Below are positions 9,918 through 31,166 of a DNA stretch of 64,000 nucleotides, piece after piece. Source of the stretch: Styela clava. Its lineage: Eukaryota; Chordata; Ascidiacea; Stolidobranchia; Styelidae. The notes beneath the pieces were generated by a model. That model saw only the letters and a list, made by a program, of their open reading frames with translations. It ran no database searches and was not told the origin of the DNA. A program made the position numbers and the translations under genes. Position 1 is the stretch's first letter. Each line of letters opens with the position of its first letter. The DNA lies in assembly GCF_964204865.1 (NCBI RefSeq), contig NC_135264.1:7160001-7224000 (forward strand), in the 5' to 3' direction.

Positions 9918-9960
9918 CAGAGGTCGGCAAACTTTTGTCGTTTGCGGGCCAAAATTACTC

Positions 9961-11782
9961 CGTTAAAGACACTTAAAACTGTCCTCGACCCACTGCCCCA
10001 CCTCCATCTACTTACTTACCTATCTATACTCGACCTACTGCCCGACCTCCCTCAGCTTTCCTATCCTTGCCCCTCTACGCCACCTCCCTATCCTCGACCC
10101 ACTGCTCTATCTCCCCAACTTTCACGTCCTCGAACCAACGCTTTATCTCCCTCAACCTCTCTCTTTTCGACCTACTTTCCTATCTCCCTCAACCTACCTA
10201 TCCTCGGACCCACTGCCCTATCTGCCACAACTTACCTATCTTTGACCTACGGTGCCATACTATTCGATACCTGACCTAACGGCGCTTTATTCACGACCCG
10301 ATTGCCACACTGAACTTTACTATCTTGCGACCAACTTCCATGGGTTATACTGGTCGTGTATGCCAATGAGATGATTCAATCGTACGTCGACAAAACATGA
10401 TTGACAGCATTCGTATATGTAGGCTGGAATCTCAAATATTAAACAATAACCTTAATTGGCAGTTTAAAAATGTTTTACTAATTGGGCTACTGATGGTTTT
10501 TTGTTGAGAATAACGGTTTTCTAAATTTTAACAGGCCGTTTTATGCCCTTAATAATTGGCCATGTCGTCAGTCTCGTGACAAATATGATGCTGATCCGAA
10601 ATAAGCAATAGTGCTCTGGTAGTATTTTTCTTCAACATTTTATAGTAAAAGCGATGCCAAAGATAACGTACTAACTACGCGGCGCTTTATTTACGACCCG
10701 ATCGCCACACTGAATTTACCATCTTGTGACCAACTTCCATGGGTTATACTGGTCGTGTATGCCAATGAGATGATTCAATCGTACTTCGACAAAACATGAT
10801 TGACAGCGTTCGTATATGTAGGCTGGAATCTCAAATATTGAACAATAACCTTAATTGGCAGTTTAAAAATGTTTTACTAATCGGGCTACTGATGGTTTTT
10901 TTGTTGGGAATAACGGTTTTCTAAATTTTAACAGGCCGTTTTATGCCCTTAATAATTGGCCATGTCTTCAGTCTCGTGACAAATATGATGCTGATCCGAA
11001 ATAAGCAATAGTGCTCTGGTAGTATTTTTCTTCAACATTTTATAGTAAATGCGATGCCAAAGATAACGTACTAACTGCGTCCTTTGCAACTTCATTAAGT
11101 TGCAGATAAGATAAGCTCAATTTTAGGACTATACGCTGAACTAAAGGCAGTTGGTAACGCTAGCTACGACAAAACATTTCATGGCTCTAAAATAGTTTGG
11201 AAGGGATTACACTCACTGAGCGACTCATATTTTTGACTGTTTTTGACTTTTCAGCCTTCTCAGTCACGTAAAAGAAATTTGTATGTACAACAGAATATGG
11301 CAGAACATTCGTTGAAAATGACTAAGCGTGCAAATATTTTATTATTTCCTCAGTGTTTTGTCTTGAACGGAAATACAAGCGACATTGAATGAGTTTCTGA
11401 AAATGAACTCAGGCATGTCGATATCGAATGACCTTTCGAAATTTTAAAAACAGTCACCTCAAATCCGATGCCACCAGTAGCTTAATAAGTAGCACATTTT
11501 TAAGCCACTCATTATGGTTATTGATTACCAATTGAGATTCCAGCCTACATTTACGAATGCCGTCAATCATGTTTTGTCGACGTACGATTGAATCATCTCA
11601 TTGGCATACTCGACCAGTATAACACATGGAGGTTGGTCGCAAAATAGTAGAGTTCTTTTTGACGATCTAGTCGTGATTGTAGCGCTGTAGGTTAGGGGCT
11701 GAGTGGTGTAGCGTCGTGTTGATGGAGGTCCGACAATGGGTCGAGGGTGGGAAGTTTGCGGCAGATAGTGCAGTGGATGAAG
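9961..11782 (-). mobile_element. foldback-like unit E4, inverted, with 409-bp internal duplication
   Basis: CT arm about 9,985-10,270; inner arm and part of the middle present twice (from about 10,274 and from about 10,683, joined by ACTAACTACGCGGCGC); full middle; inner arm; GA arm cut off at about 11,782. The same duplication junction occurs in opposite orientation near 16,550. Confidence 0.55.
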
Positions 11783-12137
11783 GAATTTTATGCCCTTAAT
11801 AAATGGCCATGTCGCCAGTCTCGTGACAAATATGATGCTGATCCGAAATAAGCAATAGTGCTCTGGTAGTATTTTTCTTCATCATTTTATAGTAAATGCG
11901 ATGCCAAAGATAACGTACTAACTTCGTCCTTTGCAACTTCATCAAGTTGCAGATAAGATAAGCTCAATTTTGGGACTATACGCTGAATTAAAGGGCAGTT
12001 GGTAACGCTAGCTACGACAAAACATTTCATGGCTCTAAAATAGTTTGGAAGGGATTACACTCACTGAGCGACTTATATTTTTGACTGTTTTTGACTTTTC
12101 AGTCTTCTCAGTCACGTAAAAGAAATTTGTATATACA
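11783..12137 (-). mobile_element. foldback-like unit E5, middle fragment
   Basis: Only the middle is present (TTTTATGCCCTTAATAAATG to TTTGTATATACA). It is joined directly to the truncated GA arm of E4 on the left and to the 5S array side on the right. Confidence 0.55.
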
Positions 12138-12156: not shown

Positions 12157-12171
12157 GACTACTACTTTATC

Positions 12172-12290
12172 GCCTACAACCATACCACGTTGAATGCACC
12201 CGTTATCGTTCGATCTCGGAAGTTAAGCAATGTCAGTTGCATGTATGTACTTGCATGGGTGACCGGCTGGGAATACCGAGTGTCGTAGGC
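12172..12290 (+). rRNA. 5S rRNA I-1, degenerate
   Basis: 119 nt. GTTATCG class in the 5' half; the intermediate element region reads GTCAGTTGCATGTATGTACT instead of the normal GGGCTCGGTTAGTACT. Likely inactive edge copy. Confidence 0.7.
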
Positions 12291-12372
12291 TTTTCGTCGC
12301 CGTTTCATTCGATTTTGCTCTGTTTTCCAACAACTGCGAAATAAAAATAGCCGAATAGACTACTACTTTATC

Positions 12373-12443
12373 GCCGTTAAGCAATGTCGGGCTCGGTTAG
12401 TACTTGCATGGGTGACCGGCTGGGAATACCGAGTGTCGTAGGC
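12373..12443 (+). pseudogene. 5S rRNA I-2, 5' truncated
   Basis: GCC is joined directly to GTTAAGCAATG, removing about 47 nt (helices II-III). Boxes A and C remain, so it might still bind TFIIIA but cannot give a normal 5S RNA. Confidence 0.85.
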
Positions 12444-12525
12444 TTTTCGTCGCCGTTTCATTCGATTTTGCTCTGTTTTCCAACAACTGCGAAATACAAA
12501 TAGCCGAATAGACTACTACTTTATC

Positions 12526-12643
12526 GCCTACAACCATACCACGTTGAATGCACCCGATGTCGTTCGATCTCGGAAGTTAAGCAATGTCGGGCTCGGTTAG
12601 TACTTGCATGGTTGACCGGCTGGGAATACCGAGTGTCGTAGGC
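12526..12643 (+). rRNA. 5S rRNA I-3
   Basis: C34G and G87T; T4 terminator. Confidence 0.88.
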
Positions 12644-12725
12644 TTTTCGTCGCCGTTTCGTTCGATTTTGCTCTGTTTTCCAACAACTGCGAAATACAAA
12701 TAGCCGAATAGACTACTGCTTAATA

Positions 12726-12843
12726 GCCTACAACCATACCACGTTGAATGCACCCGATCTCGTTTGATCTCGGAAGTTAAGCAATGTCGGGCTCGGTTAG
12801 TACTTGCATGGGTGACCGGCTGGGAATACCAAGTGTCGTAGGC
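12726..12843 (+). rRNA. 5S rRNA I-4
   Basis: C40T and G106A; T4. Confidence 0.88.
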
Positions 12844-12925
12844 TTTTCGTCGCCGTTTCATTCGATTTTGCTCTGTTTTCCAACAACTGCGAAATACAAA
12901 TAGCCGAATAGACTACTAATTTATC

Positions 12926-13043
12926 GCCTACAACCATACCACGTTGAATGCACCCGATCTTGTTCGATCTCGGAAGTTAAGCAATGTCGGGCTTGGTTAG
13001 TACTTGCATGGGTGACCGGCTGGGAATACCGAGTGTCGTAGGC
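12926..13043 (+). rRNA. 5S rRNA I-5
   Basis: C36T and C69T (GATCTTG/CTTGG class); T4. Confidence 0.88.
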
Positions 13044-13125
13044 TTTTCGTCGCCGTTTCATTCGATTTTGCTCTGTTTTCTAACAACTGGGAAATACAAA
13101 TAGCCGAATAGACTACTACTTTATC

Positions 13126-13243
13126 GCCTACAACCATACCACGGTGAATGCACTCGATCTCGTTCGATCTCGGAAGTTAAGCAATGTCGTGCTTTGTTAG
13201 TACTTGCATGGGCGACCGGCTGGGAATACCGAGTGTGGTAGGC
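13126..13243 (+). rRNA. 5S rRNA I-6
   Basis: T19G, C29T and changes around 65-70; 3' stem GGTAGGC; long-T spacer (T8). Confidence 0.85.
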
Positions 13244-13329
13244 TTTTTTTTCGTCGCCGTTCCATTCGTTTTTGCTCTGTTTTCCAACAACTGCGAAATA
13301 CAAATAGCCGAATAGACTACTACTTTATC

Positions 13330-13447
13330 GCCTACAACCATACCACGTTGAATGCACCCGATCTCGTTCGATCTCGAAAGTTAAGCAATGTCGGGCTCGG
13401 TTAGTACTTGCATGGGTGACCGGCTGGGAATACCAAGTGTCGTAGGC
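13330..13447 (+). rRNA. 5S rRNA I-7
   Basis: G48A and G106A; T4. Confidence 0.88.
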
Positions 13448-13529
13448 TTTTCGTCGCCGTTTCATTCGATTTTGCTCTGTTTTTCAACAACTGCGAAATA
13501 CAAATAGCCGAATAGACTACTACTTCATC

Positions 13530-13647
13530 GCCTACAACCATACCACGTTGAATGCACCCGATCTCGTTCGATCTCGGAAGTTAAGCAATGTCGGGCTCGG
13601 TTAGTACTTGCATGGGTGACCGGCTGGGAATACCGAGTGTCGTAGCC
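13530..13647 (+). rRNA. 5S rRNA I-8
   Basis: 3' end GTAGCC breaks the closing stem; only T3 follows. Confidence 0.85.
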
Positions 13648-13729
13648 TTTACGTCGCCGTTTCATTCGATTTTGTTCTGTTTTCCAACAACTACGAAATA
13701 CAAATAGACGAATAGACTACTACTTTGTC

Positions 13730-13847
13730 GCCTACAACCATACCACGTTGAATGCACCCGATCTCGTCCGATCTCGGAAGTTAAGCAATGTCGGGCTTGG
13801 TTAGTACTTGCATGGGTGATCGGCTGGGAATACCGAGTGTCGTAGGC
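13730..13847 (+). rRNA. 5S rRNA I-9
   Basis: T39C, C69T, C91T; T4. Confidence 0.88.
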
Positions 13848-13929
13848 TTTTCGTCGCCGTTTCATTCGATTTTGCTCTGTTTTCTAACAACTGCGAAATA
13901 CAAATAGCCGAATAGACTACTACTTTATC

Positions 13930-14037
13930 GCCTACAACCATACCACGTTGAATGCACCCGATCTCGGAAGTTAAGCAATGTCGGGCTCGGTTAGTACTTG
14001 CATGGGTGACCGGCTGGGAATACCGAGTGTCGTAGAA
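13930..14037 (+). rRNA. 5S rRNA I-10, 10-nt deletion
   Basis: Deletion between the two GATCTCG repeats; 3' end GTAGAA, then T8. Probably a pseudogene. Confidence 0.7.
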
Positions 14038-14130
14038 TTTTTTTTCGTCGCCGAGTGTCGTTTCATTCGATTTTGCTCTGTTTTCTAACAACTGCGAAAT
14101 ACAAATAGCCGAATAGACTACTACTTTATC

Positions 14131-14238
14131 GCCTACAACCATACCACGTTGAATGCACCCGATCTCGGAAGTTAAGCAATGTCGGGCTCGGTTAGTACTT
14201 GCATGGGTGACCGGCTGGGAATATCGAGTGTCGTATGC
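14131..14238 (+). rRNA. 5S rRNA I-11, 10-nt deletion
   Basis: Same deletion as I-10; 3' end GTATGC; T4. Confidence 0.7.
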
Positions 14239-14320
14239 TTTTCGTCGCCGTTTCATTCGATTTTGCTCTGTTTTCCAACAACCGCGAAAAACAAATAGCC
14301 GAATAGACTACTACTTTATC

Positions 14321-14438
14321 GCCTACAACCATACCACGTTGAATGCACCCGATCTCGTCCGATCTCGGAAGTTAAGCAATGTCGGGCTCGGTTAGTACTT
14401 GCATGGGTGATCGGCTGTGAATACCGAGTGTCGTAGGC
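14321..14438 (+). rRNA. 5S rRNA I-12
   Basis: T39C, C91T, G98T. Last gene before the 12-kb insert; its spacer is complete. Confidence 0.88.
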
Positions 14439-14520
14439 TTTTCGTCGCCGTTTCATTCGATTTTGCTCTGTTTTCCAACAACTGCGAAATACAAATAGCC
14501 GAATAGACTACTACTTTATC

Positions 14521-14564
14521 GGAGTAATTTCGGCCCGCAAACGACAAAAGTTTGCCGATCTCTG
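14521..14564 (+). repeat. junction motif J5 at the left insert edge
   Basis: A-type junction motif truncated at GGAGTAATTT by the 5S spacer. It supplies the left half of the motif whose right half ends at 26,661. Confidence 0.7.
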
Positions 14565-15682
14565 GTTTAGACGTCAGAGCCAGTGAAGCTAAACAGTCAT
14601 CCCATCACAAATCCGCCACCCACTGCCCTTTTCTATTCTCGATCCTCTGCCCTGCCCTGCCCAACTGCTCCACCTCCCTCAACTTTCCTATCCTCGACCC
14701 ACCGCCCTATCTCCCTCAACCGTCCTATCCTCGATCCACTGTCCTATTTCCCATCCCCTTCAACCTCTTTATCCTCGACTCATTGCCATATCTCAGTCAA
14801 CTTTTCTTTCCTCTATCCACTGCACTATCTGCCTCAAATATCCCACCCTCGACCCACTTTCCGATCTCCATCAAGTTACTTACCTTCGATCTACGACGCT
14901 ATACCACTCGGCCCTAACCTAACGGCGCTACAATCACGACTAGATCGTCAAAAAGAACTCCACCATCTTGCAACCAACTTCCATGTGTTATACTGGTCGA
15001 GTATGCCAATGAGATGATTCAATCGTACGTCGACAAAACATGATTGACGGCATTCGTAAATGTAGGCTGGAATCTCAATTGGTAATCAATAACCATAATG
15101 AGTGGCTTAAAAATGTGCTACTAATTAAGCTACTGGTGGCATCGGGTTTGAGGTGACTGTTTTTAAAATTTCGAAAGGTCATTCGATATCGACATGCCTG
15201 AGTTCATTTTCAGAAACTCATTCAATGTCGCTTGTATTTCCGTTCAAGACAAAACACTGAGGAAATAATAAAATATTTGCACGCTTAGTCATTTTCAACG
15301 AATGTTCTGCCATATTCTGTTGTATATACAAATTTCTTTTACGTGACTGAGAAGGCTGAAGAGTCAAAAACAGTCAAAAATATAAGTCGCTCAGTGAGTG
15401 TAATCCCTAATCCCAAACTATTTTAGAGCCATGAAATGTTTTGTCGTAGCTAGCGTTACCAACTGCCCTTTAATTCAGCGTATAGTCCCAAAATTGAGCT
15501 TATCTTATCTGCAACTTAATGAAGTTGCAAAGGACGCAGTTAGTACGTTATCTTTGGCATCGCTTTTACTATAAAATGTTGAAAAAAAAAAACTTTATAC
15601 CGACCAGGGCACTATTGCTTATTTCGGATCAGCATCATATCTGTCACAATACTCAAGACATGCCAATTATTGAGGGCATAAA
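14565..15682 (+). mobile_element. foldback-like unit E6 (no right arm)
   Basis: CT arm about 14,620-14,920, inner arm to about 15,150, middle to about 15,680 (GAGGGCATAAAAC), then joined to a fresh short CT arm. The inverted right half is missing. Confidence 0.55.
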
Positions 15683-17190
15683 ACCGCCCTATCTCCCTCA
15701 ACCATCCTATCCTCGATCCACTGTCCTTTTTCGCCCAAACTTCCTATCCCCTTAAAAATGTGCTACTACATAAGCTACTGATGGCGTCGGGTTTGAGGTG
15801 ATTGTTTTAATTTTGAAATGCCATTCGATATCGACATACCTGAGTTCGTTTTCCGAAACTCATTTAATGTCGCTTTTATTTCCGTTCAAGGCAAAACGAT
15901 GAGGAAATAATAAAATATTTGCACGCGTACTCATTTTCAACGAATGTTCTGCCATATTCTGTTGTATATACAAATTTCTTTTACGTGACTGAGAGGGCTG
16001 AAAAATCAAAAACAGTCAAAAATATGAGTCGCTCAGTGAGTGTAATCCCTTCCAAACTATTTTAGAGCTAGCGTTACCAACTGCCCTTTAATTCAGCGTA
16101 TAGTCCCAAAATTGAGCTTATCTTATCTGCAACTTAATGAAGTTGCAAAGGACGCAGTTAGTACGTTATCTTTGGCATCGCATTTACTATAAACTGTTGA
16201 AGAAAAATACCACCAGAGCACTATTGCTTATTTCGGATCAGCATCATATTTGTCACGAGACTGACGACATGGCCAATTATTAAGGGCATAAAACGGCCTG
16301 TTAAAATTTAGAAAATCGTTATTCCCAACAAAAAAACCATCAGTAGCCCAATTAGTAAAACATTTTTAAACTGCCAATTAAGGTTATTGTTTAATATTTG
16401 AGATTCCAGTCTACATATACGAATGCTGTCAATCATGTTTTGTCGAAGTACGATTGAATCATCTCATTGGCATACACGACCAGTATAACCCATGGAAGTT
16501 GGTCACAAGATAGTAAAGTTCAGTGTGGCGATCGGGTCGTGAATAAAGCGCCGCGTAGTTAGTACGTTATCTTTGGCATCGCTTTTACTATAAAAAGTTG
16601 AAGAAAAATACTACCAGAGCACTATTGCTTATTTCGGATCAGCATCATATTTGTCACGAGACTGACGACATGGCCAATTATTAAGGGCATAAAACGGCCT
16701 GTTAAAATTTAGAAAACCGTTATTCCCAACAAAGAACCATCAGTATCACAATTAGTAAAACATTTTTAAGCTGCCAATTAGGGTTATTGTTTAATATTTG
16801 AGATTTCAGCCTACATATACGAATGCTGTCAATCATGTTTTGTCGAAGTACGATTGAATCATCTCATCGGCATACACGACCAGTATAACCCAGTAAAGTT
16901 CAGTGTGGCGATCGGGTCGTGAAAAAAGCGCCGTTAGGTCAGGTATCGAATAGTATGGCACCGTAGGTCAAAGATAGGTAAGTTGTTGCAGATAAGGCAG
17001 TGGGTCCGAGGATAGGTAGGTTGAGGGAGATGGTACAGTAAGGCGAAAAAAGAGAGGTTGAGGGAGATAAAGCGGTGGTTTGAGAATGTGAAAGTTGGGG
17101 AGAAAGAGCAGAGGGTCGAGGATAGGAAAGTTGAGGGAGGTCGGCCAGTGTGTCATGGAGATAGGGCAGTGGGTCGAGGACAGTTTTAAG
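15683..17190 (+). mobile_element. foldback-like unit E7 with internal duplication
   Basis: Short CT arm (15,683-15,752), truncated inner arm, middle, inverted inner arm. A second middle/inner-arm segment starts near 16,550 (GCGCCGCGTAGTTAGTACG). GA arm about 16,960-17,190. Matches E4 in opposite orientation. Confidence 0.55.
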
Positions 17191-17241
17191 TGTTCAACGG
17201 AGTACTTTTGGCACGCAAACGACAAAAGTTTGCCGACCTCG

Positions 17242-18081
17242 GGTTTTGACTTCAGAGCCAGTGAAGTTACTGCCCTATCTCCCTCAACCGTCCAATCCTC
17301 GATCCATTGTCCTATTTTGCCCAATCTTCCTATCCCCTTCGACCTCTTTATCCTCGACTCATTACCATATCTCCCTCAACTTTTCTTTCCTCTATCCACT
17401 GGACTATCTGCCTCAAATTTCCCACCCTCGACCCACTTTCCGATCTCCATCAAGTTACTTACCTTCGAACTACGACGCTATACCACTCAGCCCCTAACCT
17501 AACGGCGCTACAATCACGACTAGATCGTCAAAAAGAACTCCACCGTCCTGCAACCAACTTCCATGTGTTATACTGGTCGAGTATGCCAATGAGATGATTC
17601 AAACGTACGTCGACAAAACATGATTGACGGCATTCGTAAATGTAGGCTGGAATCTCAATTGGTAATCAATAACCATAATGAGTGGCTTAAAAAGGTTATT
17701 GTTTAATATTTAAGATTCCAGCCTACATATACGAATGCTGTCAATCATGTTTTGTCGAAGTACGATTGAATCATCCCATTGGCATACACGACCAGTATAA
17801 CCCATGGAAGTTGGTCACAAGATAGTAAAGTTCAGTGTGGCGATCGGGTCGTGAATAAAGCGCCGTTAGGTCAGGTACCGAATAGTTTAGCACCGTAGGC
17901 CAAAGTAAGTTGTGGCAGATAGGGGAGTGGGTCTGAGGATAGCTAGGTTGAGGGAGATAGGACAGTAAGTCGAAAAGAGAGAGGTTGAGGGAGATAAAGC
18001 GGAGGTTCGAGAATGTGAAAGTTGGGGAGAAAGAGCAGAGGGTCTAGGAGAGTTGAGGAAGGTCGGGCAGTGTGTCGAGAA
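17242..18081 (+). mobile_element. foldback-like unit E8 (short form)
   Basis: The inner arm is joined directly to its inverted partner (GGCTTAAAAAGGTTATTG at about 17,688), so the whole middle is absent. CT and GA arms are present on either side. Confidence 0.6.
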
Positions 18082-18142
18082 CAGTTTTAAGTGTTTAACG
18101 GGGTACTTTTGGCACGCAAACGAAAAAAGTTTGCCGACCTCG

Positions 18143-19659
18143 GGTTTAGACTTCAGAGCCTTTCTCCCTCAACCTTCCTACCCTCGACCCACCGCCCTAT
18201 CTCCCTCAACCGTCCTATCCTCGACCCACCGCCCTATCTCTCCCTCAACCGTCTTATCCTCGACCCACTGTCCTATTTCCCATCCTCTCCAACCTCTTAA
18301 TCCTCGACTCATTGCCATATCTCCTTCAACTTTTCTTCCCTTCATCCACTGCACTATCTGCCGCAAACTTCCCACCCTCGACCCGCTGTCGGACCTCCAT
18401 CAACACGACGCTACACCACTCAGCCCCTAACCTAACGGCGCTACAATCACGACTAGATCGTCAAAAAGAACTCCACCATCTTGCAACCAACTTCCATGTG
18501 TTATACTGGTCGAGTATGCCAATGAGATGATTCAATCTTACGTCGACAAAACATGATTGACGGCATTCGTAAATGTAGGCTGGAATCTCAATTGGTAATC
18601 AATAACCATAATGAGTGGCTTAAAAATGTGCTACTAATTAAGCTACTGGTGGCATCGGGTTTGAGGTGACTGTTTTTCAAATTTCGAAAGGTCATTCGAT
18701 ATCGACATGCCTGAGTTCATTTTCCGAAACTCATTCAATGTCGCTTGTATTTCCGTTCAAGACAAAACACTGAGGAAATAATAAAATATTTGCACGCTTA
18801 GTCATTTTCAACGAATGTTCTGCCGTATTCTGTTGTATATACAAATTTCTTTTACGTGACTGAGAGGGCTGAAAAATCAAAAACAGTCAAAAATATGAGT
18901 CGCTCAGTGAGTGTAATCCCTTCCAAACTATTTTAGAGCCATGAAATGTTTTGTTGTAGCTAGCGTTACCAACTGCCCTTTAATTCAGCGCATAGTCCCA
19001 AAATTGAGCTTATCTTATCTGCAACTTAATGAAGTTGCAAAGGGCGCAGTTAGTACGTTATCTTTGGCATCGCATTTACTATAAAATGTTGAAGAAAAAT
19101 ATTACCAGAGCACTATTGCTTATTTCGGATCAGCATCATATTTGTCACGAGACTGACGACATGGCCAATTATTAAGGGCATAAAACGGCCTGTTAAAATT
19201 TAGAAAACCGTTATTCCCAACAAAAAACCATCAGTAGCCCAATTAGTAAAACATTTTTAAACTGTCAATTAGGGTTATTGTTTAATATTTGAGATTTCAG
19301 CCTACATATACGAATGCTGTCAATCATGTTTTGTCGAAGTACGATTGAATCATCTCATTGGCATACACGACCAGTATAACCCATGGAAGTTGGTCACGAG
19401 ATAGTAAAGTTCAGTGTGGCGATCGGGTCGTGAATAAAGCGCCGTTAGGTCAGGTACCGAATAGTTTAGCACCGTAGGCCAAAGTAAGTTGTGGCAGATA
19501 GGGGAGTGGGTCTGAGGATAGCTAGGTTGAGGGAGATAGGACAGTAAGTCGAAAAGAGAGAGGTTGAGGGAGATAAAGCGGTGGTTCGAGAATGTGAAAG
19601 TTGGGGAGAAAGAGCAGAGGGTCTGGGAAGGTTGAGGAAGGTCGGGCAGTGTGTCGAGG
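18143..19659 (+). mobile_element. foldback-like unit E9 (long form)
   Basis: Complete order of arms; middle motif GAAATGTTTTGTTGTAGCTA at about 18,942. Ends in a B-type junction motif. Confidence 0.6.
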
Positions 19660-19720
19660 ACAGTTTTAAGTGTTTAACGGAGTACTTTTGGCACGCAAAC
19701 GACAAAAGTTGCCGACCTCG

Positions 19721-21264
19721 GGTTTAGACTTCAGAGCCAGTGAAGTTACTGCCCTTTCTCCCTCAACCTTCCTACCCTCGACCCACCGCCCTATCTCCCT
19801 CAACCGTCCTATCCTCGACCCACCGCCCTATCCTCGACCCACTGTCATATTTCCCATCCCCTTCAACCTCTTAATCCTCGACTCATTGCCATATCTCCTT
19901 CAACTTTTCTTTCCTTCATCCACTGCACTATCTGCCGCAAACTTCCCACCCACGACCCACTGTCGGACCTCCATCAACACGACGCTACACCACTCAGCCC
20001 CTAACCTAACGGCGCTACAATCACGACTAGATCGTCAAAAAGAACTCTACTATTTTGCGACCAACCTCCATGTGTTATACTGGTCGAGTATGCCAATGAG
20101 ATGATTCAATCGTACGTCGACAAAACATGATTGACGGCATTCGTAAATGTAGGCTGGAATCTCAATTGGTAATTAATAACCATAATGAGTGGCTTAAAAA
20201 TGTGCTACTAATTAAGCTACTGGTGGCATCGGGTTTGGGGTGACTGTTTTTAAAATTTCGAAAGGTCATTCGATATCGACATGCCTGAGTTCATTTTCAG
20301 AAACTCATTCAATGTCGCTTGTATTTCCGTTCAAGACAAAACACTGAGGAAATAATAAAATATTTGTACGCTTAGTCATTTTCAACGAATGTTCTGCCGT
20401 ATTCTGTTGCATATACAAATTTCTTTTACGTGACTGAGAGGGCTGAAAAATTAAAAAAGGTCAAAAATATGAGTCGCTCAGTGAGTGTAATCCCTTCCAA
20501 ACTATTTTAGAGCCATGAAATGTTTTGTCGTAGCTAGCGTTACCAACTGCCCTTTAATTCAGCGTATAGTCCCAAAATTGAGCTTATCTTATCTGCAACT
20601 TAATGAAGTTGCAAAGGACGCAGTTAGTACGTTATCTTTGGCATCGCATTTACTATAAAATGTTGAAGAAAAATACTACCAGAGCACTATTGCTTATTTC
20701 GGATCAGCATCATATTTGTCACGAGACTGACGACATGGCCAATTATTAAGGGTATAAAACGGCCTGTTAAAATTTAGAAAACCGTTATTCCCAACAAAAA
20801 ACCATCAGTAGCCAAATTAGTAAAACATTTTTAAACTGTCAATTAGGGTTATTGTTTAATATTTGAGATTTCAGCCTACATATACGAATGCTGTCAATCA
20901 TGTTTTGTCGAAGTACGATTGAATCATCTCATTGGCATACACGACCAGTATAACCCATGGAAGTTGGTCGCAAGATAGTAAAGTTCAGTGTGGCGATCGG
21001 GTCGTGAAAAAAGCGCCGTTAGATCAGGTATCGAATAGTATGGCACCGTAGGTCAAAGATAGGTAAGTTGTGGCAGATAAGGCAGTGGGTCCGAGGATAG
21101 GTAGGTTGAGGGAGATAGGACAGTAAGTCGAAAAGAGAGAGGTTGAGGGAGATAAAGCGGTGGTTCGAGAATGTGAAAGTTGGGGAGAAAGAGCAGAGGG
21201 TCGAGGATAGGAAAGTTGAGGGAGGTCGGGCAGTGTGTCATGGAGATAGAGCAGTGGGTCGAGG
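19721..21264 (+). mobile_element. foldback-like unit E10 (long form)
   Basis: Close copy of E9 with its own substitutions; middle motif at about 20,517. E9 and E10 are adjacent long units. Confidence 0.6.
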
Positions 21265-21327
21265 ACAGTTTTAAGTGTTTAACGGAGTACTTTTGGCAAG
21301 CAAACGACAAAAGTTTGCCGACCTCGG

Positions 21328-22257
21328 GTTTTGACTTCAGAGCCAGTGAAGTTACTGCCCTATCTCCCTCAACCGTCCAATCCTCGATCCACTGTCCTAT
21401 TTTGCCCAAACTTCCTATCCCTTTCGACCTCTTTATCCTCGACTCATTGCCATATCTCCCTCAACTTTTCTTTCCTTTATCCACTGGACTATCTGCCTCA
21501 AATTTCCCACCCTCGACCGACTTTCCGATCTCCATCAAGTTACTTCCCTTCGACCTACGACGCTATACCACTCAGCCCCTAACCTAACGGCGCTACAATC
21601 ACGACTAGATCGTCAAAAAGAACTCAACCTTCTTGCAACCAACTTCCATGTGTTATACTGGTCGAGTATGCCAATGAGATGATTCAAACGTACGTCGACA
21701 AAACATGATTGACGGCATTCGTAAATGTAGGCTGGAATCTCAATTGGTAATCAATAACCATTTAATATTTGAGATTCCAGCCTACATATACGAATGCTGT
21801 CAATCATGTTTTGTCGACGTACGATTGAATCATCTCATTGGCATACACGACCAGTATAACCCATGGCAGTTGGTCGCAAGATAGTAAAGTTCAGTGTGGC
21901 GATCGGGTCGTGAATAAAGCGCCGTTAGATCAGGTATCGAATAGTATGGCACCGTAGGTCAAAGATAGGTAAGTTGTGGCAGATAAGGCAGTGGGTCCAA
22001 GGATAGGTAGATTGAGGGAGGTAGGACAGTAGGTCGAAAAGAGAGAGGTTGAGGGAGATAAAGCGGTAGTTCGAGGATGTGAAAGTTGGGGAGATAGAGC
22101 AGTGGGTTGAGGATAGGTAGGTGGCGTAGTGGGCCGAGGATAGGATGTTTGAGGGAGCTAGGGCAGTTGGTTGAGGATAGGAAAGTTGAAGGAGGTCGGG
22201 CAGTAGGTCGAGTATAGATAGGTAAGTAAGTAGATGGAGGTAGGGCAGTGGGTCGAG
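21328..22257 (+). mobile_element. foldback-like unit E11 (short form)
   Basis: Middle deleted: ATCAATAACCATTTAATATTTGAG at about 21,752. The deletion endpoint differs slightly from E8 and E13. Followed by an A-type junction motif. Confidence 0.6.
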
Positions 22258-22328
22258 GACGGTTTTAAGTGTTCTTTCTTTAACGGAGTAATTTTGGCCC
22301 GCAAACGACAAAAGTTTGCCGACCTCTG
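22258..22328 (+). repeat. junction motif J10 (intact comparator for the insert edges)
   Basis: Contains uninterrupted GTTCTTTCTTTAACGGAG and then TAATTTTGGCCCGC. It shows that the sequence ending at 26,661 and the one starting at 14,521 are neighbours in a normal repeat. Confidence 0.75.
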
Positions 22329-23927
22329 GTTTAGACGTCAGAACCAGTGAAGTTAAACAGTCATCCCATCACAAATCCGCCACCCACTGCCCTTTCCTAT
22401 TCTCGATCCTCTGCCCTGTCTCCCTCTCCCAACTGCTCCACCTCCCTCAACCCACCGCCCTATCTCCCTCAACCGTCCTATCCTCGATCCACTGTCCTAT
22501 TTCCCATCCCCTTCAACCTTTTTATCCTCGACTCATTGCCATATCTCCTTCAACTTTTCTTTCCTTCATTCACTGCACTATCTGCCTCAAACTTTTCACC
22601 CTCGCTCCACTGTCGGACCTCCATCAACTTACTTACCTTCGACCCACGACGCTACACCACTCAGCCCCTAACCTAACGGCGCTACAATCACGACTAGGTC
22701 GTCAAAACGAACTCTACTATCTTGCGACCAACCTCCATGTGTTATACTGGTCGAGTATGCCAATGAGATGATTCAATCGTACGTCGACAAAACATGATTG
22801 ACGGCATTCGTAAATGTAGGCTGGAATCTCAATTGGTAATCAATAAACATAATGAGTGGCTTAAAAATGTGCTACTAATTGAGCTACTGGTGGCATCGGG
22901 TTTGAGGTGACTGTTTTTAAAATTTCGAAAGGTCATTCGACATCGACATGCCTGAGTTCATTTTCAGAAACTCATTCAATGTCGCTTGTATTTCCGTTCA
23001 AGACAAAACACTGAGGAAATAATAAAATATTTGCACGCTTAGTCATTTTCAACGAATGTTCTGCCATATTCTGTTGTTCATACAAATTTCTTTTACGTGA
23101 CTGAGAAGGCTGAAAAGTCAAAAACAGTCAAAAATATGAGTCGCTCAGTGAGTGTAATCCCTTCCAAACTATTTCAGAGCCATGAAATGTTTTGTCGTAG
23201 CTAGCGTTACCAACTGCCCTTTAATTCAGCGTATAGTCCCAAAATTGAGCTTATCTTATCTGCAACTTAATGAAGTTGCAAAGGACGCAGTTAGTACGTT
23301 ATCTTTGGCATCGCATTTACTATAAAATGTTGAAGAAAAATACTACCAGAGCACTATTGCTTATTTCGGATCAGCATCATATTTGTCACGAGACTGACGA
23401 CATGGCCAATTATTAAGGGCATAAAACGGCTTGTTAAAATTTAGAAAACCGTTATTCCCAACAAAAAAACCATCAGTAGCACAATTAGTAAAACATTTTT
23501 AAACTGCCAATTAAGGTTATTGTTTAATATTTGAGATTTCAGCCTACATATACGAATGCTGTCAATCATGTTTTGTCGAAGTACGATTGAATCATCTCAT
23601 TGGCATACACGACCAGTATAACCCATGGAAGTTGGTCACAAGATAGTAAAGTTCAGTGTGGCGATCGGGTCGTGAAAAAAGCGCCGTTAGGTCAGGTACC
23701 GAATAGTATAGCACCGTAGGTCAAAGATAGGTAAGTTGTGGCAGATAAGGCAGTGGGTCCGAGGATAGGTAGGTTGAGGGAGATAGGACAGTAAGTCGAA
23801 AAGAGAGAGGTTGAGGGAGATAAAGCGGTGGTTCGAGAATTTGAAAGTTGGGGAGAAAGAGCAGAGGGTCGAGGATAGGAGAGTTGAGGGAGGTCGGGTA
23901 GTGTGTCATGGAGATAGGGCAGTGGGT
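22329..23927 (+). mobile_element. foldback-like unit E12 (long form)
   Basis: CT arm about 22,380-22,670, inner arm to about 22,915, middle to about 23,455, inverted inner arm to about 23,700, GA arm to about 23,927. A good reference copy for the family. Confidence 0.65.
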
Positions 23928-23997
23928 CGAGGACAGTTTTAAGTGTTTAACGGAGTACTTTTGGCAAGCAAACGACAAAAGTTTGCCGACCTCGGGT

Positions 23998-24890
23998 TTG
24001 ACTTCAGAGCCAGTGAAGTTACTGCCCTATCTCCCTCAACCGTCCAATCCTCGATCCACTGTCCTATTTTTCCCAAACTTCCTATCCCCTTCGACCCCTT
24101 TATCCTCGACTCATTGCCATATCTCTCTCAACTTTTCTTTCCTCTATCCACTGGACTATCTGCCTCAAATTTCCCACCCTCGACCCACTTTCCGATCTCC
24201 ATCAAGTTACTTCCCTTCGACCTACGACGCTATACCACTCAGCCCCTAACCTAACGGCGCTACAATCACGACTAGATCGTCAAAAAGAACTCCACCATCT
24301 TGCAACCAACTTCCATGTGTTATACTGGTCGAGTATGCCAATGAGATGATTCAAACGTACGTCGACAAAACATGATTGACGGCATTCGTAAATGTAGGCT
24401 GGAATCTCAATTGGTAATCAATAACCATAATGAGTGGCTTAAAAAGGTTATTGTTCAATATTTAAGATTCCAGCCTACATATACGAATGCTGTCAATCAT
24501 GTTTTGTCGACGTACGATTGAATCATCTCATTGGCATACACGACCAGTATAACCCATGGCAGTTGGTCGCAAGATTGTAAAGTTCAGTGTGGCGATCGGG
24601 TCGTGAATAAAGCGCCGTTAGATCAGGTATCGAATAGTATGGCACCGTAGGTCAAAGATAGGTAAGTTGTGGCAGATAGGGCAGTGGGTCCGAGGATAGG
24701 TAGGTTGAGGGAGATAGGACAGTAGGTTAAAAAGAGAGAGGTTGAGGGAGATAAAGCGGTGGTTCGAGGACGTGAAAGTTGGGGAGATAGGGAGGTGGCG
24801 TAGAGGGGCAAGGATAGGAAAGCTGAGGGAGGTCGGGCAGTAGGTCGAGTATAGATAGGTAAGTAAGTAGATGGAGGTGGGGCAGTGGGT
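23998..24890 (+). mobile_element. foldback-like unit E13 (short form)
   Basis: Middle deleted at GGCTTAAAAAGGTTATTG (about 24,437), the same endpoint as E8. A-type junction motif follows. Confidence 0.6.
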
Positions 24891-24960
24891 CGAGGACAGT
24901 TTTAAGTGTCTTTAACGGAGTAATTTTGGCCCGCAAACGACAAAAGTTTGCCGACCTCTG

Positions 24961-26661
24961 GTTTAGACTTCAGAGCTAGTGACGTTAAACATTCATCCCA
25001 TCACAAATCCGCCACCCACTGCCCTTTCCTATTCTCGATCCTCTGCCCTGTCGCCCTCGCCCAACTGCTCAAACTTCCTATCCTCGACCCACCGCCCTAT
25101 CTCCCTCAACCGTCTTATCCTCGACCCACTGTCCTATTTCCCATCCCCTTCAACCTCGACTCATTGCCATATCTCCTTCAACTTTGCTTTCCTTCGTCCA
25201 CTGCACTATTTGCCGCAAACTTCCCACCCTCGACCCACTGTCGGACCTCCATCAACACGACGCTACACCACTCAGCCCCTATCCTAACGGCGCTACAATC
25301 ACGACTAGATCGTCAAAAAGAACTCTACTATCTTGCGACCAACCTCCATGTGTTATACTGGTCGAGTATGCCAATGAGATGATTCAATCGTACGTCGACA
25401 AAACGTGATTGACGGCATTCGTAAATGTAGGCTGGAATCTCAATTGGTAATCAATAACCATAATGAGTGGCTTAAAAATGTGCTACTAATTAAGCTACTG
25501 GTGGCATCGGGTTTGAGGTGACTGTTTTTAAAATTTCGAAAGGTCATTCGATATCGACATGCCTGAGTTCATTTTCAGAAACTCATTCAATGTCGCTTGT
25601 ATTTCCGTTCAAGACAAAACACTGAGGAAATAATAAAATATTTGCACGCTTAGTCATTTTCAACGAATGTTCTGCCATATTCTGTTGTACATACAAATTT
25701 CTTTTTCGTGACTGAGGAGACTGAAAAGTCAAAAACAGTCAAAAATATAAGTCGCTCAGTGAGTGTAATCCCTTCCAAACTATTTTAGAGCCATGAAATG
25801 TTTTGTCGTAGCTAGCGTTGCCAACTTCCCTTTAATTCAGCGCATAGTCCCAAAATTGAGCTTATCTTATTTGCAACTTGATGAAGTTGAAAAGGACGCA
25901 GTTATTACGTAATCTTTGGCATCGCTTTTACTATTGAATGTTGAAGAAAAATACTTATACGGACCAGAACACTATTGCTTATTTCGGATCAGCATCATAT
26001 TTGTCACGAGACTGACGACATGGCCAATTATTAAGGGCATAAAACGTCCTGTTAAAATTTAGAAATCTGTTATTCCCAACAAAAAACCATCAGTAGCCTA
26101 ATTAGTAAAACATTTTTCAACTGCCAATTAAGGTTATTGTTTAATATTTGAGATTCCAGCCTACATATACGAATGCTGTCAATCATGTTTTGTCGACGTA
26201 CGATTGAATCATCTCATTGGCATACACGACCAGTATAACCCATGGCAGTTGGTCGCAAGATAGTAAAGTTCAGTGTGGCGATCGGGTCGTGAATAAAGCG
26301 CCGTTAGATCAGGTATCGAATAGTATGGCACCGTAGGTCAAAGATAGGTAAGTTGTGGCAGATAAGGCGGTGGGTCCAAGGATAGGTAGGTTGGGGGAGA
26401 TAGGACAGTAGGTCGAAAAGAGAGAGGTTGAGGGAGATAAAGCGGTAGTTCGAGGATGTGAAAGTTGGGGAGATAGAGCAGTGGGTTGAGGATAGGTAGG
26501 TGGCGTAGTGGGCCGAGGATAGGATGTTTGAGGGAGCTAGGGCAGTTGGTTGAGGATAGGAAAGTTGAAGGAGGTCGGGAAGTAGGTCGAGTATAGATAG
26601 GTAAGTAAGTAGATGAGGTAGGGCAGTGGGTCGAGGACGGTTTTAAGTGTTCTTTCTTTAA
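24961..26661 (+). mobile_element. foldback-like unit E14 (long form, cut at right insert edge)
   Basis: Complete arms and middle; ends in GTTCTTTCTTTAA, where the A-type junction motif is cut and the 5S gene begins after TG. Confidence 0.6.
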
Positions 26662-26663
26662 TG

Positions 26664-26781
26664 GCCTACAACCATACCACGTTGAATACACCCGATCTCG
26701 TTCGATCTCGGAAGTTAAGCAATGTCGGGCTCGGTTAGTACTTGCATGGGTGACCGGCTGGGAATACCGAGTGTCGTAGGC
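26664..26781 (+). rRNA. 5S rRNA II-1
   Basis: First gene right of the insert, preceded by TTTAATG instead of TTTATC; G25A; T4. Its own upstream box has been displaced 12 kb away. Confidence 0.9.
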
Positions 26782-26863
26782 TTTTCGTCGCCGTTTCATT
26801 CGATTTTGCTCTGTTTTCTAACAATTGCGAAATACAAATAGCCGAATAGACTACTACTTTATC

Positions 26864-26980
26864 GCCTACAACCATACCACGTTGAATGCACCCGATCTCG
26901 TCGATCTCGAAAGTTAAGCAATGTCGGGTTCGGTTAGTACTTGCATGGGTGACCGGCTGGGAATACCGAGTGTCGTGAGC
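26864..26980 (+). rRNA. 5S rRNA II-2, 1-nt deletion class
   Basis: CTCGTCG deletion, GGTTCGG, 3' end GTGAGC. Confidence 0.82.
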
Positions 26981-27062
26981 TTTTCGTCGTCGTTTCATTC
27001 GATTTTGCTGTGTTTTCTAACAACTGCGAAATACAAATAGCCGAATAGACTACTACTTTATC

Positions 27063-27180
27063 GCCTACAACCATACCACGTTGAATGCACCCGATCTTGT
27101 TTGATCTCGGAAGTTAAGCAATGTCGGGCTTGGTTAGTACTTGCATGGGTGACCGGCTGGGAATACCGAGTGTCGTAGGC
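27063..27180 (+). rRNA. 5S rRNA II-3
   Basis: C36T, C40T, C69T. Confidence 0.9.
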
Positions 27181-27262
27181 TTTTCGTCGCATTTTCATTC
27201 GATTTTGCTCTGTTTTCTAACAACTGCGAAATACAAATAGCCGAATATACTACTACTTTATC

Positions 27263-27380
27263 GCCTACAACCATACCACGGTGAATGCACCCGATCTCGT
27301 TCGATCTCGGAAGTTAAGCAATGTCGTGCTCGATTAGTACTTGCATGGGTGACCGGCTGGGAATACCGAGTGTCGTAGGC
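27263..27380 (+). rRNA. 5S rRNA II-4
   Basis: T19G; GTGCTCGATT around 65-73. Confidence 0.88.
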
Positions 27381-27462
27381 TTTTCGTCGCCGTTTCAATC
27401 GATTTTGCTCTGTTTTCTAACAACTGCAAAATACAAATAGCCGAATAGACTACTACTTTATT

Positions 27463-27580
27463 GCCTACAACCATACCACGTTGAATGCACCCGATCTCGT
27501 TCGATCTCGGAAGTTAAGCAATGTCGGGCTCGGTTAGTACTTGCATGGGTGGCCGGCTGGGAATACCGAGTGTCGTAGGC
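27463..27580 (+). rRNA. 5S rRNA II-5
   Basis: A90G-type change (GGTGGCCGG); T8 spacer. Confidence 0.9.
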
Positions 27581-27666
27581 TTTTTTTTCGTCGCCGTTCC
27601 ATTCGTTTTTTCTCTGTTTTCTAACAACTGCAAAATACAAATAGCAGAACAGACTACTACTTTATC

Positions 27667-27784
27667 GACTACAACCATACCACGTTGAATGCACCCGATC
27701 TCGTTCGATCTCGGAAGTTAAGCAATGTCGGGCTCGGTTAGTACTTGCATGGGTGACCGGCTGGGAATACCGAGTGTCGTAGGC
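27667..27784 (+). rRNA. 5S rRNA II-6, GACTAC
   Basis: C2A opens the closing stem; otherwise consensus. Confidence 0.88.
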
Positions 27785-27866
27785 TTTTCGTCGCCGTTTC
27801 ATTCAATTTTGCTCTGTTTTCCAACAACTGCGAAATACAAATAGCCGAATAGACTACTACTTTATC

Positions 27867-27984
27867 GCCTACAATCATACCACGTTGAATGCACCCGATC
27901 TCGTTCGAACTCGGAAGTTAAGCAATGTCGGGCTCGGTTAGAACTTGCATGGGTGAACGGCTGGGAATACCGAGTGTCGTAGGC
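27867..27984 (+). rRNA. 5S rRNA II-7
   Basis: C9T, T43A, T76A, C91A. HOR A marker. Confidence 0.87.
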
Positions 27985-28066
27985 TTTTCGTCGCCGTTTC
28001 ATTCGATTTTGCTCTGTTTTCCAACAACTGCGAAATACAAATAGCCGAATAGACTACTACTTTATC

Positions 28067-28184
28067 GCCTACAACCATACCACGTTGAATGCACCCGATC
28101 TCGTTCGATCTCGGAAGTTAAGCAATGTCGGGCTCGGTTAGTACTTGCATGGGTGACCGGCTGGGAATACCGAGTGTCGTAGGC
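28067..28184 (+). rRNA. 5S rRNA II-8
   Basis: Consensus; T4. Confidence 0.95.
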
Positions 28185-28266
28185 TTTTCGTCGCCGTTTC
28201 ATTCGATTTTGCTCTGTTTTCCAACAACTGCGAAATACAAATAGCCGAATAGACTACTACTTTATC

Positions 28267-28374
28267 GCCTACAACCATTCCACGTTGAATGCACCCAATC
28301 TCGGAAGTTAAGCAATGTCGGGCTCGGTTAGTACTTGCATGGGTGACCGGCTGGGAATACCGAGTGTCGTAGGC
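28267..28374 (+). rRNA. 5S rRNA II-9, 10-nt deletion
   Basis: A13T, G31A plus the deletion. Confidence 0.72.
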
Positions 28375-28456
28375 TTTTCGTCGCCGTTTCATTCGATTTT
28401 GCTCTGTTTTCTAACAATTGCGAAATACAAATAGCCGAATAGACTACTACTTTATC

Positions 28457-28573
28457 GCCTACAACCATACCACGTTGAATGCACCAGATCTCGTCGATCT
28501 CGGAAGTTAAGCAATGTCGGGTTCGGTTAGTACTTGCATGGGTGACCGGCTGGGAATACCGAGTGTCGTAAGC
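28457..28573 (+). rRNA. 5S rRNA II-10, 1-nt deletion class
   Basis: CACCAGATC; GTAAGC end. Confidence 0.82.
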
Positions 28574-28655
28574 TTTTCGTCGTCGTTTCATTCGATTTTG
28601 CCGTGTTTTCTAACAACTGCGAAATACAAATAGCCGAATAGACTACTACTTTTTC

Positions 28656-28773
28656 GTCTACAACCATACCACGTTGAATGCACCCGATCTTGTTCGATCT
28701 CGGAAGTTAAGCAATGTCGGGCTTGGTTAGTACTTGCATGGGTGACCGGCTGGGAATACCGAGTGTCGTAGGC
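28656..28773 (+). rRNA. 5S rRNA II-11
   Basis: 5' end GTCTAC; C36T, C69T. Confidence 0.88.
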
Positions 28774-28855
28774 TTTTCGTCGCCGTTTCATTCGATTTTG
28801 CTCTGTTCTCTAACAACTGCGAAATACAAATAGCCGAATAGACTACTACTTTATT

Positions 28856-28973
28856 GCCTACAACCATACCACGTTGAATGCACTCGATCTCGTTCGATCT
28901 CGGAAGTTAAGCAATGTCGGGCTCGGTTAGTACTTGCATGGGTGACCGGCTGGGAATACTGAGTGTCGTAGGC
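28856..28973 (+). rRNA. 5S rRNA II-12
   Basis: C29T, C105T. Confidence 0.9.
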
Positions 28974-29055
28974 TTTTCGTCGCCGTTTCATTCGAGTTTG
29001 CTCTGTTTTCTAACAACTGCGAAATACAAATAGCCGAATAGACTACTACTTTATT

Positions 29056-29173
29056 GCCTACAACCATACCATGTTGAATGCACCCGATCTCGTTCGATCT
29101 CGGAAGTTAAGCAATGTCGGGCTCGGTTAGTACTTGCATGGGTGACCGGCTGGGAATACCGAGTGTCGTAGGC
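29056..29173 (+). rRNA. 5S rRNA II-13
   Basis: C17T; T8 spacer. Confidence 0.9.
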
Positions 29174-29259
29174 TTTTTTTTCGTCGCCGTTCCATTCGTT
29201 TTTTCTCTGTTTTCTAACAACTGCAAAATATAAATAGCAGAACAGACTACTACTTTATC

Positions 29260-29377
29260 GACTACAACCATACCACGTTGAATCCACCCGATCTCGTTCG
29301 ATCTCGGAAGTTAAGCAATGTCGGGCTCGGTTAGTACTTGCATGGGTGACCGGCTGGGAATACCGAGTGTCGTAGGC
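29260..29377 (+). rRNA. 5S rRNA II-14, GACTAC, weak terminator
   Basis: C2A, G25C; followed by TTTATG; upstream box TATAAATAG. Confidence 0.87.
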
Positions 29378-29459
29378 TTTATGTCGCCGCTTCATTCGAT
29401 TTTGCTCTGTTTTCCAACAACTGCAAAATATAAATAGCAGAATAGACTACTACTTTATC

Positions 29460-29577
29460 GACTACAACCATACCACGTTGAATCCACCCGATCTCGTTCG
29501 ATCTCGGAAGTTAAGCAATGTCGGGCTCGGTTAGTACTTGCATGGGTGACCGGCTGGGAATACCGAGTGTCGTAGGC
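29460..29577 (+). rRNA. 5S rRNA II-15, GACTAC
   Basis: C2A, G25C; T4 restored; upstream TATAAATAG. Confidence 0.87.
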
Positions 29578-29659
29578 TTTTCGTCGCCGCTTCATTCGAT
29601 TTTGCTCTGTTTTCCAACAACTGCGAAATACAAATAGCCGAATAGACTACTACTTTATC

Positions 29660-29777
29660 GCCTACAACCATACCACGTTGAATGCACCCGATCTCGTTTG
29701 ATCTCGGAAGTTAAGCAATGTCGGGCTCGGTTAGTACTTGCATGGGTGACCGGCTGGGAATACCGAGTGTCGTAGGC
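29660..29777 (+). rRNA. 5S rRNA II-16
   Basis: C40T. Confidence 0.93.
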
Positions 29778-29859
29778 TTTTCGTCGCCGTTTCATTCAAT
29801 TTTGCTCTGTTTTCCAACAACTGCGAAATACAAATAGCCGAATAGACTACTACTTTATC

Positions 29860-29977
29860 GCCTACAATCATACCACGTTGAATGCACCCGATCTCGTTCG
29901 AACTCGGAAGTTAAGCAATGTCGGGATCGGTTAGTACTTGCATGGGTGAACGGCTGGGAATACCGAGTGTCGTAGGC
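29860..29977 (+). rRNA. 5S rRNA II-17
   Basis: C9T, T43A, C67A, C91A; HOR A partner of II-7. Confidence 0.87.
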
Positions 29978-30059
29978 TTTTCGTCGCCGTTTCATTCGAT
30001 TTTGCTCTGTTTTCCAACAACTGCGAAATACAAATAGCCGAATAGACTACTACTTTATC

Positions 30060-30177
30060 GCCTACAACCATACCACGTTGAATGCACCCGATCTCGTTCG
30101 ATCTCGGAAGTTAAGCAATGTCGGGCTCGGTTAGTACTTGCATGGGTGACCGGCTGGGAATACCGAGTGTCGTAGGC
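30060..30177 (+). rRNA. 5S rRNA II-18
   Basis: Consensus. Confidence 0.95.
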
Positions 30178-30259
30178 TTTTCGTCGCCGTTTCATTCGAT
30201 TTTGCTCTGTTTTCCAACAACTGCGAAATACAAATAGCCGAATAGACTACTACTTTATC

Positions 30260-30367
30260 GCCTACAACCATTCCACGTTGAATGCACCCAATCTCGGAAG
30301 TTAAGCAATGTCGGGCTCGGTTAGTACTTGCATGGGTGACCGGCTGGGAATACCGAGTGTCGTAGGC
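30260..30367 (+). rRNA. 5S rRNA II-19, 10-nt deletion
   Basis: Partner of II-9. Confidence 0.72.
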
Positions 30368-30449
30368 TTTTCGTCGCCGTTTCATTCGATTTTGCTCTGT
30401 TTTCTAACAACTGCGAAATACAAATAGCCGAATAGACTACTACTTTATC

Positions 30450-30566
30450 GCCTACAACCATACCACGTTGAATGCACCAGATCTCGTCGATCTCGGAAGT
30501 TAAGCAATGTCGGGTTCGGTTAGTACTTGCATGGGTGACCGGCTGGGAATACCGAGTGTCGTAAGC
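30450..30566 (+). rRNA. 5S rRNA II-20, 1-nt deletion class
   Basis: Partner of II-10. Confidence 0.82.
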
Positions 30567-30648
30567 TTTTCGTCGTCGTTTCATTCGATTTTGCCGTGTT
30601 TTCTAACAACTGCGAAATACAAATAGCCGAATAGACTACTACTTTATC

Positions 30649-30766
30649 GCCTACAACCATACCACGTTGAATGCACCCGATCTTGTTCGATCTCGGAAGT
30701 TAAGCAATGTCGGGCTTGGTTAGTACTTGCATGGGTGACCGGCTGGGAATACCGAGTGTCGTAGGC
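30649..30766 (+). rRNA. 5S rRNA II-21
   Basis: C36T, C69T; GCCTAC intact, unlike II-11. Confidence 0.9.
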
Positions 30767-30848
30767 TTTTCGTCGCCGTTTCATTCGATTTTGCTCTGTT
30801 CTCTAACAACTGCGAAATACAAATAGCCGAATAGACTACTACTTTATT

Positions 30849-30966
30849 GCCTACAACCATACCACGTTGAATGCACTCGATCTCGTTCGATCTCGGAAGT
30901 TAAGCAATGTCGGGCTCGGTTAGTACTTGCATGGGTGACCGGCTGGGAATACTGAGTGTCGTAGGC
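30849..30966 (+). rRNA. 5S rRNA II-22
   Basis: C29T, C105T. Confidence 0.9.
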
Positions 30967-31048
30967 TTTTCGTCGCCGTTTCATTCGAGTTTGCTCTGTT
31001 TTCTAACAACTGCGAAATACAAATAGCCGAATAGACTACTACTTTATT

Positions 31049-31166
31049 GCCTACAACCATACCATGTTGAATGCACCCGATCTCGTTCGATCTCGGAAGT
31101 TAAGCAATGTCGGGCTCGGTTAGTACTTGCATGGGTGACCGGCTGGGAATACCGAGTGTCGTAGGC
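31049..31166 (+). rRNA. 5S rRNA II-23
   Basis: C17T; T8. Confidence 0.9.

Follow-up and report, generated by a model that had tools for sequence, protein, structure and literature searches.

We analysed a 64,000-nucleotide stretch of the Styela clava genome (hereafter the window; C19:7,160,001-7,224,000, forward strand of contig NC_135264.1, in a 376.6-Mb assembly), in which an array of 5S ribosomal RNA (rRNA) genes is split by a block of head-to-tail satellite units. The block lies at positions 14,521-26,663 of the window, and the features on which the argument depends are the following.

14521..26663, plus strand: satellite insert, eight head-to-tail units splitting the 5S array between TTTATC and GCCTAC
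~14,521, 17,193, 18,094, 19,673, 21,278, 22,285, 23,946 and 24,913, plus strand: starts of the insert units
14514..14530, plus strand: left junction, 5S spacer to satellite, CTTTATCGGAGTAATTT; four exact copies in the genome
26650..26669, plus strand: right junction, satellite to 5S gene start, TTCTTTCTTTAATGGCCTAC; four exact copies in the genome
22271..22290, plus strand: internal native junction, variant J1, GTTCTTTCTTTAACGGAGTA; both edges resemble halves of this type of junction
24910..24926, plus strand: internal native junction, variant J2, GTGTCTTTAACGGAGTAATTT
12157..14520, plus strand: 5S array I, 12 units with gene starts at 12,172-14,321, the first two damaged; Rfam RF00001 matches
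26664..64000, plus strand: 5S array II, 187 units in the window; first unit with G25A, C156T and C162T
5880..12137, units in both orientations: second satellite block (block A), left of array I and with a separate join to it

At the left edge (...GACTACTACTTTATC / GGAGTAATTTCGGCCCGC) the 5S spacer stops with TTTATC at 14,520 and the block opens with GGAGTAATTT at 14,521. At the right edge (...GTTCTTTCTTTAA + TG / GCCTACAACC) a complete 5S gene starts at 26,664, with an Rfam 5S match over 26,664-26,782, and no target 5S base was lost at insertion. An earlier, sequence-only reading of this DNA had placed the block exactly at a 5S start without loss of 5S bases, and the junctions read at 14,500-14,570 and 26,620-26,680 agree with it. 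The same reading had the two edges directly joined in the native junction of the repeat at about 22,271-22,290. They are indeed adjacent there, in the order GTTCTTTCTTTAA-C-GGAGTAATTTTGG, with one C between the sequences found at the two edges of the block; the joining is not exact to the base, in that this native C is missing and a TG is extra at the right joint.

One insertion at four sites on C19

The left junction is found at exactly four places in the genome (C19:7,174,514 and 7,312,970 on the plus strand, 7,847,411 and 7,851,805 on the minus strand). Another 48 matches with one mismatch are native joints, 47 of them CTTTAACGG and one CTTTACCGG. The right junction also occurs exactly four times (C19:7,186,650 and 7,349,347, plus; 7,845,033 and 7,849,427, minus), a count unchanged with two mismatches allowed, and an exact gapped pattern joining the right end of the satellite to the 5S start of both 5S gene types returned the same four. 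All four left and right junctions sit in 5S DNA, on both strands of C19. A genome search for other 5S/repeat junctions, as the sequence-only reading had proposed, thus added three sites with both junctions. The inserts measure 12,143, 36,384, 2,382 and 2,382 bp, the two short ones differing by four bases and having no internal joint by the patterns used.

The 5S units that flank the inserts carry variants common to all four copies. On the left, the adjacent unit has G98T and the next one C104T and T170A; on the right, the first unit has G25A, C156T and C162T, and units further out are partly alike. G25A is present in 1 of the 199 5S units of the window. Copies 1 and 2 differ at 8/660 left-flank and 27/1,600 right-flank bases. 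Because these marker variants are common to the 5S units beside all four copies, the four sites, with their shared flanks, identical joints and edges that are adjacent in the repeat, are one insertion that was later duplicated, inverted and resized. The repeat does end at the same bases at three other places, which the sequence-only reading had held would count against it if the ends were natural; they arose by duplication of the event, not from a natural end. The 12.14 kb that it took as the size of the event need not be the original size, because the event is represented elsewhere by copies of 2.38 and 36.4 kb, and the length has changed since.

A further copy is suggested by the far end of the 5S cluster (~8,446,347), where satellite adjoins minus-strand 5S DNA. 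The satellite unit there is 99.0% identical to the last unit of the window, and the join is the same junction minus ~255 bp, inverted, beyond which the second and third 5S units are also of the same types. This edge is probably a fifth, eroded copy of the insertion. Past it the satellite extends, with an interruption, to ~8.497 Mb.

The satellite and the phase of its edges

The inserted repeat is a genome-wide satellite that forms long head-to-tail arrays at many sites. With 100 bases of the unit as query, 40 scored matches out of 1,073 candidates were obtained, on C2, C3, C5, C13, C17 and C19, and the regions fetched around these matches were satellite arrays, save for one isolated fragment of ~0.4 kb at 15.89 Mb on C19. 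Full units are ~1.6-1.75 kb long, some units of the insert being internally deleted or duplicated, and they carry inverted arms that are long but imperfect (the 25 longest of 71 pairs are 77-82% complementary) and in which a 37-bp C-rich minisatellite is abundant. Most unit-to-unit joints have the form GTTTTAAGTGT(...)TTTAACGGAGTA. Satellite DNA is not expected to have coding capacity of its own, and the longest stop-to-stop frames in the block reach only ~150-160 amino acids. A Pfam scan of six open reading frames (ORFs) from the window, three of them in the block, returned no match above the cut-off, with two weak sub-threshold hits in one of the three block ORFs.

The right edge has an extra TTCTTTC, the mark of joint variant J1. 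When right halves of joints (~513 bp) were compared with three edges, J1 joints scored 95.7-99.0% and other joints 90.1-96.0%, a small overlap that leaves the J1 assignment less than sharp in places. For the right edge of copy 1, scores were 97.7-99.0% against the other edges and the J1 inside its insert, and 91.5-95.0% against the six remaining joints of that insert. Among left halves (700 bp), those of copies 2 and 4 scored 96.8-98.3% to J1, 95.8-96.2% to J2 and no more than 93.8% to any other joint; for copy 1 the scores were 94.6-95.1% (J1), 94.6% (J2) and no more than 92.9% (other joints), with the same 94.6% to the J1 and the J2 of its own insert. In this comparison of edges, insert 2 was represented by three of its five internal J1 joints. 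Judged by these scores, the two edges resemble the two halves of a single native junction variant, J1.

As a native joint, J1 has 33 exact occurrences on C2, C3, C5 and C19, of which 28 are outside the inserts, and 66 occurrences when up to two mismatches are allowed. Measured from edge to edge, the J1 intervals are 7,764 + 4,379 bp in the insert of the window, 7,327, 7,321, 7,327, 7,320, 3,386 and 3,703 bp in the longest insert and 2,382 bp in the short ones; such sums of J1-to-J1 intervals only restate that the edges are J1 and are no independent proof of it. The longest insert holds a 14.6-kb duplication whose halves differ at 66/14,643 aligned bases. The phase of the edges is constant while the length of the insert varies.

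Routes of entry into the 5S array

Satellites can form extrachromosomal circles, which can reintegrate. The insertion is like the outcome of that general model in that its edges are adjacent in the repeat and no target base is lost; it differs in that the circle as donor, along with the original length and the order of the size changes, is something we infer, and in that the place of joining is a short, partial match within the 5S spacer. We looked at how the satellite ends elsewhere in 96 unit heads, which came from pieces picked for their similarity to the unit and not at random, and which include 70 kb from the stretch past the far edge of the 5S cluster. None of the 96 begins at the edge base of the block. 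In 87 of them a broad pattern detects the native joint no more than 60 bp upstream, and in one further head that joint is present with one base changed. With no natural end at the edge base and 87 heads running through the native junction, a circle cut once, or an in-phase tandem segment, is the better reading of the ends. A satellite without ends that is cut at one point on both sides leads in turn either to an opened circle or to template switching at the same match.

We favour, with moderate confidence, the integration of a satellite circle opened at J1. This would have been a single entry of the ~1.7-kb genome-wide satellite into the 5S array, from a donor that had been opened at a single junction, J1, and was most probably an extrachromosomal circle; the joining would have used a short, partial match just ahead of the 5S gene start. 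Exchange between satellite units may then have altered the length to 2.4, 12.1 and 36.4 kb with both edges constant, and duplication and inversion of the 5S array would have spread the marked site to four, probably five, places. The match at the joint is between CTTTAACG of the satellite and CTTTATCG just before the 5S gene start and covers 7/8 bases, in a window of eight that was picked after the joint had been seen; a joint-spanning match of at least 7/8 is reached by 0.2% of random pairs of 5S and repeat positions, and by 0.25% when the 5S side is fixed at the gene start.

Several observations weigh against circle integration at J1, including the choice of that window and, from the comparisons above, the overlap of J1 with other scores, the tie in the left half of copy 1 and the circularity of the interval sums. 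A 12-base window matches at 8/12, which 1.7% of random pairs reach, a weaker homeology. A clean crossover would give CTTTAACGCC at the right joint; the actual sequence is CTTTAATGGCC, with TG in place of C, and a small repair change must therefore be added. The isolated ~0.4-kb fragment on C19 is not a whole period, and linear pieces disperse too. As to an empty site, the flank haplotype is absent from all 11 other G25A units, and no uninterrupted ancestor in the unit order of arrays I and II, with marker variants on both sides, was found in the window. Lastly, of the eight remaining unit heads, six have their break 2-8 bases inward of the edge base. These six represent three distinct joints (three copies with a non-satellite flank, two with one minisatellite-arm join and one with another), of which the non-satellite flank and the single minisatellite-arm join recur in block A. 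Because six of eight exceptional heads break there, the near-edge phase of the satellite is not neutral for breaks. The proposal of the sequence-only reading that the ends derive from a circle or tandem segment, and not from linear transposition, thus gains from the lack of heads at the edge base and loses from these three joints.

Template switching is a less likely, though serious, alternative. Repair near the 5S gene start would jump into the satellite at CTTTA-CG, copy whole units and return at the same match, with no circle involved. It accounts for both edges lying at one satellite phase and for the 7/8 match, and J1 arrays usable as a template are present on C2, C3, C5 and C19, but the same short match must be used twice. 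We rank circle integration above it; the present data do not separate the two.

That the block is a discrete mobile element, bounded by natural ends (GGAGTAA...CTTTAA), which inserted as a linear molecule and was then tandemly duplicated, we consider improbable. Two of the copies are a single 2,382-bp unit in which the patterns used found no internal junction, and the bases ATCG on the left and ATGG on the right agree at 3/4 positions and could be a worn 4-bp target duplication, which the homeology explains as well. Near the unit head lies a sequence that we take to be like a hAT transposon terminus, but it is ~45 bp inside the edge and faces the opposite way, reading away from it. No unit head begins at the edge base and 87 of 96 pass through the native junction, which argues against natural ends there, as does the lack of a Pfam match above the cut-off in the three scanned block ORFs. 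A discrete element keeps its small probability because the three other satellite joints also break near the edge point.

An assembly artefact is very improbable: the region is highly repetitive, but the same joints were recovered at four places whose inserts vary in length and whose flanks have diverged (8/660 and 27/1,600 bases between copies 1 and 2). Least probable of all are independent insertions drawn to the 5S transcription start by RNA polymerase III (Pol III) chromatin or a fragile site, for although the insertion is exactly at a gene start (by arithmetic, a 5S position falls within 1 bp of one with a chance of ~3/200) and the unrelated left join of array I is ~15 bp upstream of another, the flank variants common to all four copies contradict independence for these four, no junction of the satellite right end with a 5S start is detected by the exact gapped pattern at the second 5S locus (on C14) and the array I join matches once in the genome. 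The preference for Pol III chromatin put forward in the sequence-only reading is unsupported, because the four sites, the only ones found by the gapped pattern, descend from one event and one event cannot show a preference.

Two extensions of circle integration, that J1 is an attachment site at which satellite circles enter and leave by very short homology and that the insert at the 5S site is still growing and shrinking by J1-to-J1 periods via free circles, beyond chromosomal unequal crossing-over, are together doubtful.

The 5S cluster, its surroundings and related systems

The 5S cluster extends over C19:7.17-8.45 Mb, with plus-strand arrays seen as far as 7,509,500 and minus-strand arrays from 7,536,001, the centre between them being read at its two ends, and looks like a giant inverted pair. 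Positions 1-532 of the window recur with 95% identity at C19:8,497,662-8,498,179, past the satellite that borders the opposite end of the cluster. Array II has higher-order duplications of its own: 13 successive units recur 22 units on (41,815/46,227) and 12 units recur 12 units on (57,230/59,619), with at most one difference per unit in each case.

Block A joins array I ~15 bp upstream of a gene start, behind ~16-19 filler bases, and this join has one genome match with up to three mismatches allowed. We considered whether array I had been inserted into the satellite and rejected this, as the satellite phases at 12,137 (block A) and 14,521 do not adjoin each other. We likewise rejected the view that block A has, in its left edge (5,880), an independent third edge at nearly the same phase. 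The non-satellite flank there, AATACGTGCTACCCGCCAATGACTTGCAAC (window 5,847-5,891), joins the satellite head on C17 and C2 also and so is part of a larger repeat; it is perhaps a portion of the element that gave rise to the satellite head.

The second 5S locus (C14:1.61-1.82 Mb) has units of ~1.3 kb with the gene start GCCTACGACC, where the units on C19 are 200 bp; the gene-start pattern used has 4,258 matches over both 5S loci, of which the first 100 were covered. One 1.5-kb piece of this locus holds two Rfam 5S matches, one without 11 model positions and the other cut by the end of the piece. Outside the two loci, a truncated 5S fragment with spacer was found at C8:1,360,985, ~0.1 kb from a transfer RNA match. 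Scans of viral contigs with the 5S pattern and with the repeat pattern gave no matches for either. Elsewhere in the window, an element at 923-2174, presumably hAT-like, has the ends CAGGGGTGTGCAAC and, as reverse complement, CAGGAGTGTGTAAAC and is flanked by a perfect 8-bp duplication (ACTTATAC), and a 386-bp unit is present at 2,312-3,080 in two tandem copies that are 98% alike.

In Tribolium freemani, 5S ribosomal DNA (rDNA) is associated with satellite DNA and Jockey-like elements (PMC11202950). As far as the available part of that article goes, the systems are alike in that 5S genes and satellite are intermixed at one locus, but the satellite there is the 5S spacer, whereas here one insertion splits regular arrays and is copied along with them. 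The 5S arrays of pike (Esox) have a higher-order organisation with inverted blocks, as do those on C19; the available part of the source (PMC5437419) describes no satellite insertion that marks the duplications, a feature present here. The Mutsu retrotransposons of zebrafish, as named in the same part of PMC11202950, share with our block their insertion in 5S DNA, in their case in 5S genes. They are ~5,500 bp long with two ORFs, in contrast to the three scanned block ORFs, in which no Pfam match above the cut-off, and no reverse-transcriptase ORF of the Mutsu type, was found.

Satellite dispersal and rearrangement of rDNA arrays are known biology, and the insertion is a clear natural marker and not a new kind of element. 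Being exact to the base and present in four copies, with probably one more that is eroded, over ~0.7-1.3 Mb and on both strands, it serves as a natural tag within a 5S array that otherwise is uniform. The tag reveals duplication and inversion of array segments, along with resizing of the enclosed satellite between constant edges. Such tags let the turnover of the array and the route by which the satellite entered be measured from assemblies.

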